NCBI GenBank assembly: GCA_021821785.1
Contig: JAKACD010000008.1
Span: 1 to 48,628 of the forward strand
Reading direction: 5' to 3'
Origin: Thermoplasmata archaeon
GTDB taxonomy: Archaea > Thermoplasmatota > Thermoplasmata > Lutacidiplasmatales > UBA184
Length of the DNA: 48,628 bases
The notes under the pieces were generated by a model. It saw nothing but the letters and a program-made list of their open reading frames with translations. It searched no databases and was not told where the DNA came from. The position numbers were made by a program, and so were the translations under genes. Of this stretch, positions 28,520 through 38,224 are shown in pieces. Position 1 is the first letter of the stretch. Each line of letters opens with the position of its first letter.

Positions 28520-29596
28520 ATGCGGGCGAGCGGAGGCTTCCACGGGCGACGGATCCAGAAGACCGGGGGCTCCACCTACATCATCTCGCTCCCGAAGAAC
28601 TGGGTCATGGCCCGGGGTCTCCGCCCCGGCGACACGCTCCTCTTCACGCCGCGGGCCGACGGCTCGCTCACGGTCTTCGCCGAATCGGCCGGGCCGCCGA
28701 TCGCCGAGCGGCGCGCCGTCAGCGTGTCGAACGAGATGGAGAAGGAGCATCTCTTCCGTCGGCTGATCGCGGAGTACATCGCGGGCTACCCGCTCCTCGA
28801 GATCCGCACGCCGGGCCGGATGAGCGCCCGGACCCGCGAGGTGATCCGTTCCTTCGCCCAGCGTATGATCGGCCCCGAGATCCTCGAGGAGACCGCGGAG
28901 TCGGTGATCCTCCAGGACGTCGTCGGGGCGAACCCGCTGCCGATCCCCTCGATCCTCCGGCGCGAGCATCAGATGGTGCGCGCGATGCAGGCCGACGCGA
29001 TGGCGGCATTCCGAAGCCGGGACGCGCAGATCGCGCGGGACGTTGTCGAGCGCGACTGGGAGGTCGACCGGCTCCATTGGTTCCTCGAGAAGCAGGTGAC
29101 GAGCGCGCTCCGCGACGCGCGGATCCTCGCGACGCTCGATCTCACGCTCCCGGAGTGCTCGACGTACCTCCTCGCCTCCCGGATCCTCGAGCGGATCGCC
29201 GACCACGCGGTGCGCATCGCGGAGACGGTAGCGATGATCGGCACCGAGCGGTCCCCCGAGCGGCTCGCAGGGGCGCTCGAACGCATGGCGGACCAGGCCG
29301 GGAGCGCGCTCGCCGATGCCCTCGACTGCCTCGACAGCCGCGACATCCCGAAGGCGAACCGCGTGATCGACTCGGCCGAGCAGATCACCCGCGAGCGCGA
29401 CCAGCTGCTCCACGAGATCGGCTCGAAGCGCGGCCGCCTCGCCATCGGGCTCGCCTACGTCCTCGAGAGCCTCGAGCGGAGCGCCTTCTACGCGAGCGAC
29501 CTCGCCGAGATCGCGATCAACCGGGCCGTCGAGTCCCCTTCGCCCGAGGCGGCCCCCGCCGGAACCCCGGTGAAGGCGCTTGTGCCCGGGGTATAG
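28520..29596 (+). CDS. AbrB/SpoVT domain-PhoU phosphate uptake regulator
   Basis: RRIQKTGGSTYIISLPKNWVMARGLRPGDTLLF (AbrB-like), then PhoU-type helices with LASRILERIADHAVRIAETV. Confidence 0.87.
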   Translation: MRASGGFHGRRIQKTGGSTYIISLPKNWVMARGLRPGDTLLFTPRADGSLTVFAESAGPPIAERRAVSVSNEMEKEHLFRRLIAEYIAGYPLLEIRTPGRMSARTREVIRSFAQRMIGPEILEETAESVILQDVVGANPLPIPSILRREHQMVRAMQADAMAAFRSRDAQIARDVVERDWEVDRLHWFLEKQVTSALRDARILATLDLTLPECSTYLLASRILERIADHAVRIAETVAMIGTERSPERLAGALERMADQAGSALADALDCLDSRDIPKANRVIDSAEQITRERDQLLHEIGSKRGRLAIGLAYVLESLERSAFYASDLAEIAINRAVESPSPEAAPAGTPVKALVPGV

Positions 29597-29615: not shown

Positions 29616-31235
29616 CTAGCCCTGGAACGGTCGCCGCCAGTCGTCCGGCAGGACGGCGGTCTCCTTGATGTTCCGGGGGGAGACCCAGCGCAGGAGGTTC
29701 AGGATCGAGCCGGCCTTATCGTTCGTTCCCGACCGCCGGGCACCCCCGAACGGCTGGCGCGCGACGATCGCCCCGGTCGGCTTGTCGTTCACGTAGAAGT
29801 TGCCGGCGCTGTACCGGAGGAGCTCCTCCGCCTGTGCGAGCGCGGCCCGGTCCTCCCCGAAGACCGCCCCCGTGAGCCCGTAGGGCGAGGTCGCGTCGCA
29901 GAGGCGGAGCGTCGCCTCGTACTCGGCGTCCGGATAGACGTAGACGGTGAGCAACGGGCCGAAGATCTCCTCCGACATCAGCTTCCCCTTCGGCTCGGTC
30001 GTCCGGACGACGGTCGGGCGGACGAACCAGCCGTGGGAGCGGTCGGTCCCGCCGTCCACGACGAACGAGTACTCCTTCGGATGGCTCCGCGCGAAGTCGA
30101 GGTAGCCCTGGATCCGGGCGAACGCCGCCTCGTCGATCACCGCGCCCATGAGGTTCTTGAGGTCCGAGACCGGTCCGACGCCGACCTTGGGGAGCTCGGC
30201 CGTCAGGATCCGCTCGACCTCGGGCCAGCGGCTTTCGGGGATGTAGGCGCGCGAGCAGGCCGAACACTTCTGGCCTTGGTACTCGAACGCGCCGCGGAGG
30301 AGGTTGAGCGCGGTGCCGCGGGCGTCCGCCGACGGGTGCATGAAGATGAAGTCCTTCCCGCCGGTCTCCCCGACGATCCGCGGGAAGTTGCGGTACTTTT
30401 CGATCTGGCTCCCGACCCGCTTCCAGATCTCGACGAGCGTGTCGTAGCTCCCCGTGAAGTGAATCCCCGCAAGGTCGGGATGATCGAGGACGACGTTCGC
30501 GTCCCGGCTCGAGAACGGCACGAAGTTGATGACCCCCGGAGGAAGGCCGGCCTCGACCAGGACCCGGTAGATCTCGTAGTTCGCGGGGATGACGGCGCGC
30601 GCCGGCTTCCACAGCGCGACGTTGCCCATCATCGCCGGGGCCGTGGGGAGGTTCCCGGCGATCGAGTAGAAGTTGAACGGCGGGATCGCGAGGACGAACC
30701 CCTCGAGCGGCCGCCAGTCGAACCGGTTCGTCTCGCCCGGGTACTGGTTCGGCTGCAGCTCGTAGATCTGGCGGGCGAAGTAGACGTTGAAGTTCCAGAA
30801 GTCGACGAGCTCGGCGAGGTCGATCTCGGCCTCGTAGGGGTTCTTCGCCTGGTTGAGCATGATCGCGGCGATGTTCCGAATCCGACGCGGCCCGGCGAGC
30901 AGGGTCGCCGCCCGCTGGAAGATCCCGACCCGGTGGGGCCAGGCCATCCGGGACCACGCCGCGCGCGCGGCCAGGGCGCTCTCGACCGCCCGGTGGAGCT
31001 CCGCCGGGCCGGCCAGATGCGCCCGGGCGAGGAGGAGCCCATGGTCGTCCGGGGCCCGGACCTCGAGGACCGAGTCGGTGCGGACCTCGCGACCGCCGAT
31101 CGCGAGCGGGATCTCGCTCGGCGCGCGCCGGAGCGCCGCGATCTCGGCCTCGAGCCGCGTCCGGTCGGGGGAGTTCGGGGCGTACGAACGGATTGTGTTG
31201 ACGTCGTTCACCGGACGCTCGACGTTGTAGTTCAT
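29616..31235 (-). CDS. pruA: 1-pyrroline-5-carboxylate dehydrogenase
   Basis: AIPPFNFYSIAGNLPTAPAMMGNVALWKP, VGETGGKDFIFMHPSAD, FEYQGQKCSACSRAYIPES, MSEEIFGPLLTVYVYPD, RQPFGGARRSGTNDKAG. Confidence 0.93.
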   Translation of the reverse strand: MNYNVERPVNDVNTIRSYAPNSPDRTRLEAEIAALRRAPSEIPLAIGGREVRTDSVLEVRAPDDHGLLLARAHLAGPAELHRAVESALAARAAWSRMAWPHRVGIFQRAATLLAGPRRIRNIAAIMLNQAKNPYEAEIDLAELVDFWNFNVYFARQIYELQPNQYPGETNRFDWRPLEGFVLAIPPFNFYSIAGNLPTAPAMMGNVALWKPARAVIPANYEIYRVLVEAGLPPGVINFVPFSSRDANVVLDHPDLAGIHFTGSYDTLVEIWKRVGSQIEKYRNFPRIVGETGGKDFIFMHPSADARGTALNLLRGAFEYQGQKCSACSRAYIPESRWPEVERILTAELPKVGVGPVSDLKNLMGAVIDEAAFARIQGYLDFARSHPKEYSFVVDGGTDRSHGWFVRPTVVRTTEPKGKLMSEEIFGPLLTVYVYPDAEYEATLRLCDATSPYGLTGAVFGEDRAALAQAEELLRYSAGNFYVNDKPTGAIVARQPFGGARRSGTNDKAGSILNLLRWVSPRNIKETAVLPDDWRRPFQG

Positions 31236-31331
31236 GCTCCGCGCCACCCTCCGACGGATGCTAACGGTTTCGTGAAGTCCCATTGATGCCGCCTTAAAGT
31301 CACTCTCCCCGCTGATTTTCCTGAGCAGGCG

Positions 31332-33425
31332 ATGCCCATGGACCGGGTCCTCCGCCATCCCGTCCTCGACGTGCCGGGCCCGGGCCCGACGGTCGAGTTC
31401 ACCTTCGACGGGCGACCGATCACGGCCCGGCCGTCGGAGCCAATCTCCTCGGCCCTGATCGCGAACGGGATCCATATCTTCGGCCGGCACGAGCGGGACG
31501 GCGCCCCGCAAGGGATCTTCTGCGCGAACGGCCAGTGCGCGCAGTGCCTCGTGGTCGTTGACGGACGCCCGGTGAAAGCCTGCCTCACGCCGGTGCGGCC
31601 CGGGATGGTGGTCCGGTCGACGGTGGGATACCCTGAGCTCGCCCCGGACGACGCGCCGGTCTCCCTCGTCCCCCGCGTCGACGAGGTCCGGACCGAGGTC
31701 CTCATCGTCGGCGGGGGTCCGGCCGGGCTCGAGGCCGCCCGCGAGCTCGCCGCCCGGGAACTCGACGTCACGATCTGCGACGACAAACCGACGCTCGGCG
31801 GGAAGCTCTCGCTCCAGACGCACAATTTCTTCGGCTCGGTCGCCGACTGCCATGCCGGGGACCGGGGCCAGGCGATCGGCGAGCTTCTCGCCGCAGAAGT
31901 GGCCGCGCTCCCCACCGTGGAGATCTGGACGGAGTCACCGGTCGTCGGGGTCTTCGACGGCGGCGTGGTCGGCGTGGTGCGCCGTGGGCGCTTCACCGCG
32001 GTCCGGCCGAAGGTGCTTCTCGTCGCCGCCGGGGCCCGGGAGAAGGCGCTCGCCTTCCCGGGCGCGGACCTCCCCGGTGTCTACGGAGCGGGAGCGTTCC
32101 AAACCCTCGTTAACCGCGATCTGGTTCTCCCCTCCCGGCGGCTCTTCATCGTCGGCGCGGGGAACGTCGGTCTCATCGTTGCCTACCAGGCGCTCCAGGC
32201 CGGCGTCGACGTCGTCGCGGTCGTCGAGATGCTGCCCGAGGTCGGAGGCTACAAGGTCCACCGGGACAAGCTGCTGCGCCTCGGCGTCCCCGTCTACACC
32301 AGCCACACGGTCCTCCGCGCCGAGGGTCGCGAGCACGTCGAGCGGGTGATCGCCGCGCGGGTCGATCCGAAGTTCCACCCGATTCCGGGGAGCGAGGTGG
32401 CGTTCGACGTCGATACCGTGCTGGTCGCTGTCGGGCTCTCTCCCGTCAACGAGCTATTCGAGGAGGCCCGTCGCATCGGGCTGCGTGCGTACGCGGCCGG
32501 TGACGCCCGCGAGATCGCCGAGGCGTCGGCCGCGATCTTCTCCGGACGGATCGTGGCCCGCACCATTCTGAAGGACCTCGGGTTTCCCGATACGGTCCCC
32601 GAGGCCTGGCGGCAGCGCGCTCTCGAGCTCTCCGCGCACCCGGGCCCGGTGCTCGGCGTCTATCCGGTCCCTGCCGAGAGGCGCGTCTATCCCCTCCTCC
32701 GCTGCGAGCAGGAGATCCCGTGCAATCCGTGTACGGAGGTCTGCCCGCTCGACAGTATCACGATCCTCGAGGGGAATCTTCTCGGACGGCCGAAGCTCGT
32801 CGGCGACTGCTCCGGCTGCTTGAAGTGCGTGGCCGTCTGCCCGGGGCTCGCGATCACGCTGGTCGACCGGCGGGTCGACCCGACCGGCGCCCGAGCCCGC
32901 GTCACGGTCCCGTGGGAGATGCCCGAGGAGTGGGTCCACCCCGGCGAGGTCGTGCCCACCAGCGGCCGCGAGGGCGAGCCGGTCGGCGAGGCGCGGGTCG
33001 TGCGCATCCTGGCCGGCCGAGCGCTCCACCACCGCCGGCTGCTCGTACTCGACGTTCCGGCCTCCGAGGCCGACCGCGTCGCCGGGGTCCGCGTCCGGGA
33101 TCCCGTCCCGCCCCGGCCTGTCCCGGGGGCCCCGCCCGTCCGCGACGACGAGGTCGTCCTGTGTCGGTGCGAGCGAGTGACCCGAGCGTCGGTGATCGAG
33201 TACCTCCGGGCGACCGGGACCCGCGACATGAACGCCGTGAAGGCGGGACTCCGCAGCGGGATGGGCCCCTGCGGGGGCCGGACCTGCGGCGAACTCATCC
33301 TACGGGTCTTCCGCGAGCTCGGTATCGAGCCCGGGTCAGTGACGCCGGGCGTTCCGCGTCCGTTCACCCAGGAGGTGCCGATCACGGCCTTCCTCAGCGA
33401 GGAGAACGATGGCCGCGGACGTTGA
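31332..33425 (+). CDS. Imino-acid (proline/sarcosine) dehydrogenase alpha-type subunit: 2Fe-2S, FAD/NAD(P), 4Fe-4S ferredoxin, BFD-like
   Basis: CANGQCAQCLVVVDGRPVKAC; EVLIVGGGPAGLEAARELA; CEQEIPCNPCTEVCPLDSI...CSGCLKCVAVCPG; CRCERV...CGGRTC. Confidence 0.85.
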   Translation: MPMDRVLRHPVLDVPGPGPTVEFTFDGRPITARPSEPISSALIANGIHIFGRHERDGAPQGIFCANGQCAQCLVVVDGRPVKACLTPVRPGMVVRSTVGYPELAPDDAPVSLVPRVDEVRTEVLIVGGGPAGLEAARELAARELDVTICDDKPTLGGKLSLQTHNFFGSVADCHAGDRGQAIGELLAAEVAALPTVEIWTESPVVGVFDGGVVGVVRRGRFTAVRPKVLLVAAGAREKALAFPGADLPGVYGAGAFQTLVNRDLVLPSRRLFIVGAGNVGLIVAYQALQAGVDVVAVVEMLPEVGGYKVHRDKLLRLGVPVYTSHTVLRAEGREHVERVIAARVDPKFHPIPGSEVAFDVDTVLVAVGLSPVNELFEEARRIGLRAYAAGDAREIAEASAAIFSGRIVARTILKDLGFPDTVPEAWRQRALELSAHPGPVLGVYPVPAERRVYPLLRCEQEIPCNPCTEVCPLDSITILEGNLLGRPKLVGDCSGCLKCVAVCPGLAITLVDRRVDPTGARARVTVPWEMPEEWVHPGEVVPTSGREGEPVGEARVVRILAGRALHHRRLLVLDVPASEADRVAGVRVRDPVPPRPVPGAPPVRDDEVVLCRCERVTRASVIEYLRATGTRDMNAVKAGLRSGMGPCGGRTCGELILRVFRELGIEPGSVTPGVPRPFTQEVPITAFLSEENDGRGR

Positions 33426-34575
33426 CGCGATCGTCATCGGGGCGGGCTCGGTCGGCAACCCGACCGCCTACTTTCTGGCCCGCGAGGGGCGCCGCGTTCT
33501 CGTGCTCGACGAGCTCAGCGCCTCGGGCCAAGGACAGAACAAGGCGGCGATCGGCGGCGTCCGGGCGACCCACTCCGACCCCGCGAAGATCCGGCTCGGG
33601 CAGGAGAGCCTTGAGATCTTCTCGCACTGGAAGGAGGAAACTGGGACCGACATCGGATGGAAGCCCGGGGGGTACTGCTTCCCCGCGTACGACGAGACGA
33701 CCGAGTCGACCTTGCGCACCCTGCTCGGGGTCCAGCACGCCTACCACCTCGGGATCGAGTGGCGGGATCCGGCGGAGATCCGCCGGGTGGTCCCCGGCAT
33801 CAATCCGGAGGGATTGCGCGGGGGGACGTACTCCCCGGGGGACGGTCAGGTGAACCCCCTCAAGGCGGCGGAGTCGTTCACCCACGAGGCCGTACGGCGC
33901 GGGGCCGAGTACCACTACCGGGAAAAGGTGACCGACCTCCTCGTCGACGACCACACGGTCCGCGGTGTCCGAACCGACCGGGGCGAGTACCGCGCCCCGG
34001 TGGTGATCAACACGGCCGGGGCGCGCGGGTCGCAGATCGCGCGCATGGCCGGCCTCGAGCTCCCGGTCGCGCCCGAGAGCCACGAGGCCGGCATCTCGGC
34101 TCCCGTGAAGGAGTTCCTCGCCCCGCTCGTCGTCGACCTGCGGCCAGGGCCCGAGGGGAAGACGGCGAACTTCTACTTCGGCCAGGACGCGGACCAGCAG
34201 GTCATCTTCTGCTACACTCCGCGGCCGGCGGTCCCCGGCGAGAACCGCACGTCGACCTTCGAGTTCATGCCGATCGCGGCCGCGCGCCTGGTCTCCCTCA
34301 TCCCCCGGCTGAAGAACCTCACGATCCGTCGCGTCTGGCGTGGCCTGTACCCGATGACCCCGGACGGGAGCCCGATCGTCGGGTGGGCCCCGGACGTCAA
34401 GGGGCTCCTCCTCGGGATCGGCCTCTGCGGGCAGGGGTTCATGCTCGGCCCCGGGGTCGGACGGACGCTCGCGGCGCTGGCCAGCGGCACGCGCCCCATC
34501 CTCGACCCCGATGTCCTTGCGACGCTGAGCCCGTCCCGGGACTTCTATCGGGGAACGAAGGAGTCGTTGCGCTAG
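33409..34575 (+). CDS. FAD-dependent oxidoreductase (DAO/SoxB-like beta subunit)
   Basis: DAIVIGAGSVGNPTAYFLAREGRRVLVLDELSASGQGQNKAAIGGVRATHSDPAK...LYPMTPDGSPIVGWAPDV...GQGFMLGPGVGRTLA; overlaps the alpha-subunit ORF. Confidence 0.86.
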   Translation: MAADVDAIVIGAGSVGNPTAYFLAREGRRVLVLDELSASGQGQNKAAIGGVRATHSDPAKIRLGQESLEIFSHWKEETGTDIGWKPGGYCFPAYDETTESTLRTLLGVQHAYHLGIEWRDPAEIRRVVPGINPEGLRGGTYSPGDGQVNPLKAAESFTHEAVRRGAEYHYREKVTDLLVDDHTVRGVRTDRGEYRAPVVINTAGARGSQIARMAGLELPVAPESHEAGISAPVKEFLAPLVVDLRPGPEGKTANFYFGQDADQQVIFCYTPRPAVPGENRTSTFEFMPIAAARLVSLIPRLKNLTIRRVWRGLYPMTPDGSPIVGWAPDVKGLLLGIGLCGQGFMLGPGVGRTLAALASGTRPILDPDVLATLSPSRDFYRGTKESLR

Positions 34576-34599: not shown

Positions 34600-36684
34600 C
34601 TACGAGCCGGGGGCGTAGCGGACCTCGAGGTCCTGGAAGACGTTCGTAACGTCCTCACAGCGGTCGGTGATGATCTCGAGCCGCTCGTAGAAGTCCTTCC
34701 ACTTCAGGATCTCCACCGGGTCCCGCTCGGTGAAGAGCTTCTCGAGCAGGTCGCGCAAGAGATCGTCGGCCTCGTTCTCGAGTCGGTTCACCTCGACGAT
34801 GGCGTGCTCGAGGTTGGCGGGCGCGCCGCGATAGAGCTCGTCGAGCCCCAAGATCCCGTCCGCGACCCGCTCGACGCACTCGACGACGATGTCGGCGAAG
34901 CGCTTGAGCTCGGGTCGGGTCCGGTCGAGGTGGTAGGTCCGTACCCGGGCCGCGACCGATTCAATGCCGTCGATGATGTCGTCGAGGGCGCTCGCGAGGC
35001 GGCCGACCTCGGCCCGGACCTCGGAGGTCAGGCGCCGGTAGTTGAGCTCGACGAAGATGCGGTGCACCTCCTCGTCGGCCGCGTGTTCGATGGCGCGGAT
35101 GCCGTCGATCTTCCGGTCGCGGTCGGTGACGGGATCGTCCAGGAGCTCGCGGAGCGCGATCGCGGCCTGCTGGCCCGTCAGCGAGAGCGAACGGAGGTAC
35201 GTCGAGAACCGCCGGACGAGCACCGCGAGCTCGTCCTCTCCCGAGACATCCTCGAGCGATCGCTGCGAGGTCTCCGGGAGGAGGGCGAGCGTGAGCACGA
35301 AGCCGAGGAACGAGACAGCGGCGAGCAGACCGAAGAACCACGGGATCCCGTAGGTCTGGTAGAGGCCCGCAAAGACGAACACCGCCACGACCGCCCCGAT
35401 CTTCCCCGAGGCCGCGGCGATCCCGTGGCCGGTCGTGCGGAACGTCGTCGGGAAGACCTCGCTCGGGTACACGAACGTCGTCGTGTTCGGGCCGAAGTTC
35501 GCGAAGAAGAAGGTGAGGCCATAGACGGCGAGGAAGGCGGGCAGGACCGATTCGAGACCGCCCCAGTCGAGGGAGAGGAAGAGGAACGCGAACGCCATCA
35601 CCCCGAAGCCGATGTACTGGAGCGGCCGACGGCCGACCCGGTCGATGAGCGCGACCGCCGCCCAGTATCCCGGGACGCTCGCGACGAGGGCGATCAGCAC
35701 GTTGCCGATCGCGAGCCGCCGGACCTGCTCGAGCGCCGGGTAGCTCGCCGCGCTCGCGAAGCCGATGTGCTTCAGGATCAGCGGATTGAAGATGTTGGTC
35801 GAGTAGAACGCGATGTCGAGGAGGAACCAGGTCGCGGCTGTCCCGAAGATTACGAGGCCATAGGAGCGGAACAGTTGGCGGAGCGGGACGCCCAGGGACC
35901 GGGGCGTCGACCCCCCGCCCGCGAGCCGGGTCCCCGTGATCGTCCCGACGGTGCTCGCCGCGGCGCCGACCCGCCCACGGGCCAGCTCGAAGCGGGGAGT
36001 CTCGGGCATCCGGATCCGGTAATAGATCGTGAGGACGGCCGGGAGCGCGCCGAGGCCCAGAATGAGCCGCCAGGCGATGTCGAGGTTCGGGATCGCGTAG
36101 ACGACCGCGAGGCTGGTCCCGGCCCCGGCGAGCAGCCCGAAGCCCTGCATCGCGAAAACGGAGGCGACGAGGCGGCCGCGACTCTGGACGTTCGAGTACT
36201 CGCTCATGATCGTCGCGCTGAGCGGGTAGTCGCCGCCGACGCCGACGCCGAGGAAGAACCGCCAGAGGATCAGGACCGAGATCGTGGAGAGGCCCCCGAT
36301 GGGGACGCTCAGCGCGCTGCCGACCGCCGCGACCGCCATGAGCGAGAGCGTGAGCCCGTAGACCCTCCGGCGGCCGAGCCGGTCGCCGAGCCAGCCGAAG
36401 AGCACCTGGCCGACGGCCGCGCCCATCAGGGCCGTCGAACCGAGGAGGGCGAGCTCGCTGGTGCTGACCGCGCCGCCCGGCGCGAGGGCGATCAGGATCG
36501 GGATGACGAGCGAGATGACGAAGAGGTCGTAGGCATCGGTGAAGAACCCCATTCCCGCAACGACGATCGTGCGGAAGTGGAACCGCTGGACACGCGCCGT
36601 GTCGAGCGCGTGAAGGATCCGACGGGACTCGGTCGAGAGCCCCGACCGATCCTCCGCCGCGGGCGGCGCGCCGGCATCGGGCAC
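34600..36684 (-). CDS. MFS phosphate:H+ symporter-like transporter fused to a C-terminal DUF47/PhoU-like domain
   Basis: GMGFFTDAYDLFVISLVIPIL, GWLGDRLGRRRVYG, FLGVGVGGDYPLSATIMSEYSN (PHO84-like); C-terminal ELLDDPVTDRDRKIDGIRAIEHAADEEVHRIFVEL...DDIIDGIESVA...VNRLENEADDLLRDLLEKLF...DFYERLEIITDRCEDVTNVFQDL (DUF47-like). Confidence 0.85.
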   Translation of the reverse strand: MPDAGAPPAAEDRSGLSTESRRILHALDTARVQRFHFRTIVVAGMGFFTDAYDLFVISLVIPILIALAPGGAVSTSELALLGSTALMGAAVGQVLFGWLGDRLGRRRVYGLTLSLMAVAAVGSALSVPIGGLSTISVLILWRFFLGVGVGGDYPLSATIMSEYSNVQSRGRLVASVFAMQGFGLLAGAGTSLAVVYAIPNLDIAWRLILGLGALPAVLTIYYRIRMPETPRFELARGRVGAAASTVGTITGTRLAGGGSTPRSLGVPLRQLFRSYGLVIFGTAATWFLLDIAFYSTNIFNPLILKHIGFASAASYPALEQVRRLAIGNVLIALVASVPGYWAAVALIDRVGRRPLQYIGFGVMAFAFLFLSLDWGGLESVLPAFLAVYGLTFFFANFGPNTTTFVYPSEVFPTTFRTTGHGIAAASGKIGAVVAVFVFAGLYQTYGIPWFFGLLAAVSFLGFVLTLALLPETSQRSLEDVSGEDELAVLVRRFSTYLRSLSLTGQQAAIALRELLDDPVTDRDRKIDGIRAIEHAADEEVHRIFVELNYRRLTSEVRAEVGRLASALDDIIDGIESVAARVRTYHLDRTRPELKRFADIVVECVERVADGILGLDELYRGAPANLEHAIVEVNRLENEADDLLRDLLEKLFTERDPVEILKWKDFYERLEIITDRCEDVTNVFQDLEVRYAPGS

Positions 36685-36757: not shown

Positions 36758-37906
36758 TCAGAGGGACCGGTCCCCTTGGATCCGGTCCAGGAACGACCCA
36801 AGGTCGTCCGACGACGGCACGCGGGGGTTCGCGAGCACCGCCGGCGACCCGAGCGCATGGGCGATCACTTGATCGCGGACGGCGGCAAGTCGGCTCGTAT
36901 CGACTCCGGCGGCGGGCAGCGTCGCCGGGCAGCGGAACGTCTCGAGGAGGCGTCCCCACCGCGTCGCGAGCGGGGTCCGCACGGGGTTCTCGCCACGGAG
37001 GACCGCCGTCGTGAGCGCCTCGAGTCGGTCCCGGGCCGACGGTCGGTCGAATTCGAGCACGGGGAGGAAGAGAAGCCCGAGGAGCCGTCCGTAGGAGAGC
37101 CCGGTCGGCCCGCTGAGGGCGCGGGCCAGGGCATGCCCGACCCCCCGCTGCGCGTTCGACGCCGCGAGGCCGGCCGCGGTGGCGGCGTAGTGGAGCGCCG
37201 CCTTCGCATCGGGGTCCTCGCTCCAGCGGAGCGCGTGAGGGAGGCGCTCGAGGACCGTCGCGAGCGCGTCGACCGCGAGGGCGTCCGAGAGCGGGTTTGC
37301 CCACGCGGAGAGGTACGCCTCGAGGGCTTGGACGGCGATCTCGAACCCGCCGTCGAGAAGAAGGTCCGGGGAGAGCGACGCGGCGAACGCAGGGTCGAGG
37401 AGCGCCCACTCGGGGGTCAGGGCCCGGTGCGCGAACTCGAACGGGACGCCCTCGGCGGTCCAGAGGTCGGCCGTGGCCGAGGCCTCGCTGCCGCTACCGC
37501 TGGTGGTCGGGACGGCCGCGAGGCGCAGCCGGTGCGGGCCGTCGAGATCGAGGCCCGGGAGCGCGGCGCGGAGGTCGAGGCCCGGTCGTTCGAAGACGAG
37601 CCGGGCGGCCTTACACGCATCGATCGCGCGCCCTCCGCCCACCACCACGAGCCAGTCCGGGGCGAACGCGGTGAGCCGCTCGACCAGCACGCCGATCCGG
37701 TCGACGCGATCCGGGGCCTCCGGGAGGCCCACCACCTCGATCGCGCAGTCCGTCTTCGCGAGCTCTTCGGTGATGCGCCGCGCTCCGTCCCGGCCCTCGA
37801 CCGCGTGGTCGACCGCCACCACCGCCCGATGCGCGTCGAGACCGCTCAGCTGCTCGATCGCGCCGGGCCCCCAGGCGATCCGCGGGGCCGTGAAAAAACC
37901 GGTCAT
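36758..37906 (-). CDS. Iron-containing alcohol dehydrogenase family protein with altered metal-ligand motifs
   Basis: VVVGGGRAIDACKAARLV, AVPTTSGSGSEASATADLW (family motifs); GGFEIAVQALEAYLS in place of the usual DALxHAxEAY. Confidence 0.8.
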   Translation of the reverse strand: MTGFFTAPRIAWGPGAIEQLSGLDAHRAVVAVDHAVEGRDGARRITEELAKTDCAIEVVGLPEAPDRVDRIGVLVERLTAFAPDWLVVVGGGRAIDACKAARLVFERPGLDLRAALPGLDLDGPHRLRLAAVPTTSGSGSEASATADLWTAEGVPFEFAHRALTPEWALLDPAFAASLSPDLLLDGGFEIAVQALEAYLSAWANPLSDALAVDALATVLERLPHALRWSEDPDAKAALHYAATAAGLAASNAQRGVGHALARALSGPTGLSYGRLLGLLFLPVLEFDRPSARDRLEALTTAVLRGENPVRTPLATRWGRLLETFRCPATLPAAGVDTSRLAAVRDQVIAHALGSPAVLANPRVPSSDDLGSFLDRIQGDRSL

Positions 37907-37933: not shown

Positions 37934-38224
37934 CTACGCCGACGGGCCTTCCCGGCAGCGCTGGCAGGCGCCGGTGAGCGAATACGAGATCCCGTCCACC
38001 GACCACCCGTCGGGTCGCCGGGCCGCGAGCTCTTCGAGGAAGTGCCGGTCGAGTTCCGTGAGCTCGATCCGCTGGATGCGACCGCAGGCGCGACAGACGA
38101 TGTGGGAGTGCGGCTCCTCATGCAGGTCGACGGACGGAGGGGGCGCCGCCCGGGTGGGGCGTGCGCGCACGGGGGCACGAACGTTGGGAGTGCGGGGGGT
38201 CGGCCGCCGTTTCGCTCGCGCCAA
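37934..38224 (-). CDS. Truncated Fur-family protein (C-terminal metal-binding/dimerisation domain only)
   Basis: HSHIVCRACGRIQRIELTELDRHFLEELAAR...YSLTGACQRCR resembles the Fur C-terminal domain; no Fur winged-helix region; Arg/Pro-rich N-terminus. Confidence 0.7.
   Translation of the reverse strand: MARAKRRPTPRTPNVRAPVRARPTRAAPPPSVDLHEEPHSHIVCRACGRIQRIELTELDRHFLEELAARRPDGWSVDGISYSLTGACQRCREGPSA

Follow-up and report, generated by a model that had tools for sequence, protein, structure and literature searches.

A Pho84/PHT1-type transporter fused to a DUF47 domain in an acid-habitat archaeon: a candidate self-regulated phosphate:proton symporter

Organization of the Locus

The window analyzed here is the whole 48,628-nucleotide stretch of contig JAKACD010000008.1 (assembly GCA_021821785.1) of a Thermoplasmata archaeon, an acid-habitat organism hosting a gene in which an MFS transporter and a DUF47 domain are fused (Table 1). 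The single 694-aa reading frame that a first-pass annotation had placed at 34600-36684 is present and lies on the minus strand, the strand having been left out of that annotation, and all the DUF47-like motifs quoted there are found in the translation. The MFS phosphate transporter and the DUF47 domain that it had assigned to one chain were both recovered by HMM search, i.e., Sugar_tr (PF00083) at residues 41-480 with E = 5.6e-46, MFS_1 with E = 6e-32 and DUF47/PhoU_div (PF01865) at residues 497-683 with E = 1.4e-20 and 74.0 bits, above the gathering cut-off of 24.4. In the same Pfam search the Na/Pi cotransporter (PF02690) and PhoU (PF01895) families were absent up to E = 1 and no SPX domain was matched. 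Among solved structures the protein matches best rice PHT1;11 (9kmq; 1.7e-106) followed by PiPT (7sp5; 4e-75), and the closest solved relative of the tail by sequence is the DUF47 protein 3l39 (9.5e-18). With TIGR00153, the NCBIfam model of PitR, the tail reaches 39.5 bits against a cut-off of 104.3 bits, and instead of being a separate gene beside a pit gene it is fused to an MFS protein in a genome in which no PHO4/Pit was found. This tail is the only DUF47 of the genome.

Table 1. Features at the fused locus (positions in the window).
Feature	Position	Strand	Support and remarks
AbrB-PhoU regulator	28520..29596	+	PhoU 2e-27, MazE/AbrB 2.9e-7
L-glutamate gamma-semialdehyde dehydrogenase	29616-31232	-	TIGR01236, 742 bits, above cut-off
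SoxA-like 2Fe-2S flavoprotein	31332-33425	+	
SoxB/ThiO-like FAD oxidoreductase	33409-34575	+	
MFS-DUF47 fusion gene, 694 aa	34600..36684	-	GTG start, stop included; ORF and Pfam; frame conserved in relatives
DUF47 (PhoU_div) tail, residues 485-694, six helices	34603..35232	-	
Pho84/PHT1-like MFS domain, residues 41-480	35245..36564	-	
Iron-containing alcohol dehydrogenase	36758..37906	-	73 bp upstream of the fused gene; linkage kept in the genus
Short Fur-like ORF, C-terminal part only	37934..38224	-	Below Pfam cut-off; linkage with the alcohol dehydrogenase and the fused gene kept in the genus

The whole chain was modelled with AF2 with a pLDDT of 86 but a pTM of only 0.71, showing 12 membrane helices. 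Such a model had been suggested as a check by the first-pass annotation, and it agrees with the domain assignment, the MFS half resembling OsPHT1;11 (9kou) and PiPT (7sp5) with a TM-score of about 0.85, normalised to the target; in a separate model of the tail alone, the tail has a PhoU fold.

Proposed Mechanism

We propose, with a rough probability of 0.66, that the gene encodes a Pho84/PHT1-type phosphate:proton symporter with a cytoplasmic PitR-type DUF47 C-terminus that restrains import and/or signals. The structural part of this reading is well supported; that the tail regulates, and in which direction, we infer. The MFS half would bring in H2PO4- together with protons, and a DUF47 of the Pit-associated lineage would have been joined onto it, placing a six-helix PhoU-fold tail with metal-site motifs on the cytoplasmic side. 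The tail may sense phosphate sufficiency via bound metal-phosphate or via the transport cycle itself, and it would then restrain import and/or report the state to the neighboring AbrB-PhoU. Support for the tail as a regulator comes by analogy from Staphylococcus aureus, for which it was shown that phosphate homeostasis is governed by PitR and by the PhoU domain of NptA, each of them acting together with its own transporter (PMC13170248). However, two-hybrid analyses in S. aureus did not detect a contact between PitR and PitA, and although the authors give such negatives little weight, this calls for caution in reading the regulation as direct (PMC11705898).

Gene Neighborhood and the AbrB-PhoU Regulator

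The AbrB-PhoU gene, which had been noted before at about 5 kb from the fused gene, lies 5.0 kb from its 3' end in the window. The two genes are separated here by the cassette at 29616-34575, which with its P5C dehydrogenase and SoxA/SoxB-like flavoproteins looks like proline-type catabolism from its annotation, and they are adjacent in relatives. Altogether, 14 of the 42 loci examined show AbrB-PhoU next to the fused gene, in two arrangements. In most of the loci examined from the window's genus it abuts the fused gene, being convergent with the same 19-bp 3' overlap in seven relatives and separated by a gap of about 0.5 kb in an eighth. A divergent arrangement, at a distance of about 180-480 bp, is that of four members of another genus and of two f16-type loci, which belong to another family. 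In genomes of 1.4-3.6 Mb such a repeated adjacency is, judged informally, hard to credit to chance.

This adjacency also leaves room for a different role of the tail, namely that it does not gate transport and that the protein acts as a transceptor signalling to AbrB-PhoU, as the PhoU domain of NptA does on PhoPR. The repetition of the adjacency in two gene arrangements is in line with this, as is the altered reporter expression in S. aureus carrying NptA without its PhoU domain (PMC13170248). However, the adjacency is limited to one third of the loci, the other 28 having no AbrB-PhoU neighbor within the flanks examined, which were short for some loci, and around the fused genes of Micrarchaeota AbrB-PhoU was likewise missing from the flanks examined. 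We therefore regard a role in signalling alone as unlikely, yet deserving serious attention.

The DUF47 Tail

Modelled alone (AF2), the tail forms a six-helix bundle (pLDDT 93, pTM 0.90) with 3l39 as its top match in the PDB (TM-score 0.88), the best 15 matches all being PhoU-like. It contains E/DxxxD motifs at residues 533-537, 568-572, 636-640, 670-674 and 674-678, and presumably binds metal. PhoU-fold proteins bear metal clusters, and the tail might thus be a structural element, i.e., a module for dimerization or stability or a store of metal-phosphate, without a regulatory role. The homodimers formed by PitR and PhoU on purification (PMC11705898) are compatible with this. It is nevertheless made improbable by the strict conservation of the metal-type motifs, of which E533, D537, D568, D572, E636, D640, E670, D674 and D678 are invariant among 25 fused proteins and which the tail has in common with standalone DUF47, and by the many homologous MFS paralogues that function without a tail.

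The MFS Half and Its Substrate

For PiPT, the residues of the phosphate pocket and of the proton path were taken from the published list (PMC6761603) and mapped by alignment, the corresponding residues in the window protein being D50, D53, T112, R142, D152, Y153, F177, Q180, W286, D290, Y294, N400 and K428. Twelve of these 13 are identical, the exception being E108 of PiPT, which is replaced by T112; a threonine occupies this position also in the aligned rice PHT1;11 and throughout the 17 fused alignment rows from the family of the window. In the same 17 rows D45, D48, R139, Y150, F174, Q177, W320, D324, Y328, N431 and K459 (PiPT numbering) are invariant, and the position of D149 (D152 in the window protein) is either D or E, with E in five rows. 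The best NCBIfam model for the protein is the phosphate:H+ symporter model TIGR00887 (E = 9.4e-129), and we take phosphate to be its probable substrate. Besides the fused gene, the genome encodes an unfused Pho84-like MFS paralogue (L078:5583-7085, contig C36) and a Pst-type permease.

The MFS half could, in principle, move another anion or an organic substrate, and the fusion would then be unrelated to phosphate. Two observations go in this direction: the window protein stays below the equivalog cut-off of TIGR00887 (430.5 versus 610.3 bits), and a divergent group of fusions (families f8 and f13; L064-L069, L100, L107), for which an aromatic acid symporter model is the best NCBIfam match, has W for Q177 in six and R for K459 in five of its eight members. 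These replacements make the substrate of the divergent group less sure, and judging from these residues its members may have another one. For the window's family, in contrast, all eight phosphate-pocket residues of PiPT are retained and the DUF47 lineage is linked to Pit, so that a substrate other than phosphate is very improbable.

Distribution of the Fusion

The PF01865 profile was run over 392 genomes of the phylum, taking frames of about 650-870 aa as fused-length. Such frames recur in the genus and family of the window, with the MFS half in the same frame, and a profile built from the tails detected a fused-length frame (at least 640 aa) in 45 out of the 300 genomes sampled from the class, distributed over seven families. 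The search for other MFS-DUF47 fusions proposed by the first-pass annotation thus found the same frame in dozens of related archaeal assemblies, one of them the complete genome of Ca. Micrarchaeum A_DKE (NZ_CP060530.1; L093). That annotation had named an assembly error as a possible refutation, and a merging of two genes by assembly or annotation, to which a single MAG of high GC might have been prone, is refuted, since an uninterrupted frame in dozens of independent assemblies, including the complete genome, is accounted for neither by chance nor by a mis-join.

Beyond the class census, a contig profile search recovered the fusion from Thermoplasmata MAGs, from MAGs labelled Marsarchaeota, and from one Thermoprotei and one Nitrososphaerota MAG; L089, labelled Marsarchaeota, groups in the phylum of Micrarchaeum. 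Across the 146 genomes of this phylum the tail was matched 12 times within frames of 645-751 aa, and the MFS half was confirmed for L089 and L093. Bacterial loci recovered by the contig profile search contained no MFS-DUF47 fusion, and no fusion was found in 200 genomes of the Bacillota phylum (that of Alicyclobacillus), all 82 tail matches listed being in frames below 280 aa. In 250 genomes of the phylum of L096 the only long frames are L096 itself and one of 625 aa; within this 625-aa open frame lies a weak DUF47 match (G847:C8:18970-19533).

Several candidates were rejected. The match in the actinomycete locus L160, reaching residue 561, was not accepted as a tail, and a 683-aa frame of genome G481 that seemed fused at first look is in fact a standalone DUF47 ORF of 234 aa adjoining Pit. 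Furthermore, it proved wrong to regard all DUF47 frames of about 700 aa in the phylum as MFS fusions, those of two families of another class being Pit-DUF47.

Origin of the Fusion and Other DUF47 Arrangements

A tree was built from 86 DUF47 domains, and in it the 39 tails fused to MFS proteins all fall into a single clade (100/99), whose sister or near-sister group is standalone DUF47 from the same class. These standalone relatives lie directly upstream of a Pit gene in 13 of the 16 loci fetched, which accords with the earlier statement that DUF47 is usually a separate gene adjoining Pit and with the literature (PMC13170248). A single clade of tails that is sister to mostly Pit-adjacent DUF47 indicates that a Pit-type regulator moved to another transporter and became covalent. 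A single clade for the MFS halves of all fusions was rejected (AU test, p = 8.4e-5), although the tails do form one. The number of fusion events is therefore left between two accounts that both fit these trees: there may have been one ancient fusion with several later losses of the tail, or the tail may have been exchanged among MFS paralogues.

A PHO4/Pit transporter and DUF47 are joined in one chain of about 700 aa in L070-L077 (e.g., L073:4435-6552), members of families f34 and f42 of the other class, which are probably marine Poseidoniia. Their tails form a clade apart from the MFS-fused tails (100/100), so that DUF47 was fused here in a separate event and to a different transporter fold. 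In the remaining three of the 16 standalone loci (L199, L200 and L208) DUF47 stands beside an ABC importer consisting of a sulfate/molybdate/phosphonate-like permease and two ATPases (L199:4338-9579), with one DUF47 gene at either end of the set in L199; this suggests that DUF47 also serves a third class of transporters. At L127:2778-6106 a DUF47-Pit pair is followed directly by an unfused Pho84-like MFS gene, all on one strand.

Taken together, DUF47 might not be specific to Pit but a portable module for the control of transporters, one that in archaea controls a Pho84-type MFS in cis, Pit in a separate fusion, and stands beside an ABC importer in some genomes. We hold this generalization tentatively, at somewhat less than even odds. 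A recent survey of 926 bacterial genomes (2026) found PhoU, PitR and the NptA PhoU domain each bound to one transporter family (PMC13170248), and a portable DUF47 would break this bacteria-derived rule of a single transporter family for each PhoU-type clade and would demonstrate that it acts on unrelated transporter folds by contacting them directly. A word search of the text of that survey returned no mention of archaea, of the major facilitator family or of fusions.

Significance and Comparison With Known Systems

The first-pass annotation had based its suggestion of a self-regulated phosphate permease on the covalent joining of DUF47 to an unrelated MFS transporter. The weight placed on the covalent link was too great, since NptA, a Na/Pi cotransporter with a C-terminal PhoU domain, already combines a phosphate transporter and a PhoU-family domain in one chain (PMC13170248, PMC11705898); the principle of the fusion is thus not new, and the new part is the pairing of MFS and DUF47. 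No description of such a fusion was found in the open-access library searched, and the architecture itself would show in Pfam. Since regulator and transporter are present in one chain and at a ratio of 1:1, the action of DUF47/PitR on the transporter itself becomes directly testable, a point that two-hybrid analyses could not settle (PMC11705898). The fusion thereby offers a natural single-chain system, kept in dozens of related archaea, for studying DUF47 control of phosphate uptake.

Among known systems, NptA of S. aureus resembles the window protein in that a phosphate transporter carries a covalently attached tail of the PhoU family, which in NptA is active in phosphate homeostasis (PMC13170248), but it consists of a Na/Pi-II fold and PhoU, whereas the window protein consists of MFS and DUF47/PitR. 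PitR-PitA shares the regulatory domain family, the nearest standalone relatives of the tail being mostly Pit neighbors, and differs in that the domain of the window protein is covalent and sits on an MFS symporter in a Pit-less genome. The Pho84/PHT1 proteins PiPT and OsPHT1;11 are the best relatives of the MFS half in sequence and structure and share its fold and substrate-site residues; however, the solved eukaryotic members match the MFS half only and lack a DUF47 tail. The Pit-DUF47 fusions are likewise phosphate transporters of about 700 aa with a covalent DUF47 tail, but with a PHO4 transporter and a tail of a separate clade. Finally, eukaryotic SPX-MFS phosphate transporters carry an SPX domain at the N-terminus of an MFS phosphate transporter. 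SPX is unrelated to DUF47 and placed at the opposite end; in both cases, however, a phosphate-status domain is joined to an MFS phosphate transporter, which would make the archaeal fusion a prokaryotic counterpart of these eukaryotic fusions of a phosphate sensor with an MFS phosphate transporter.
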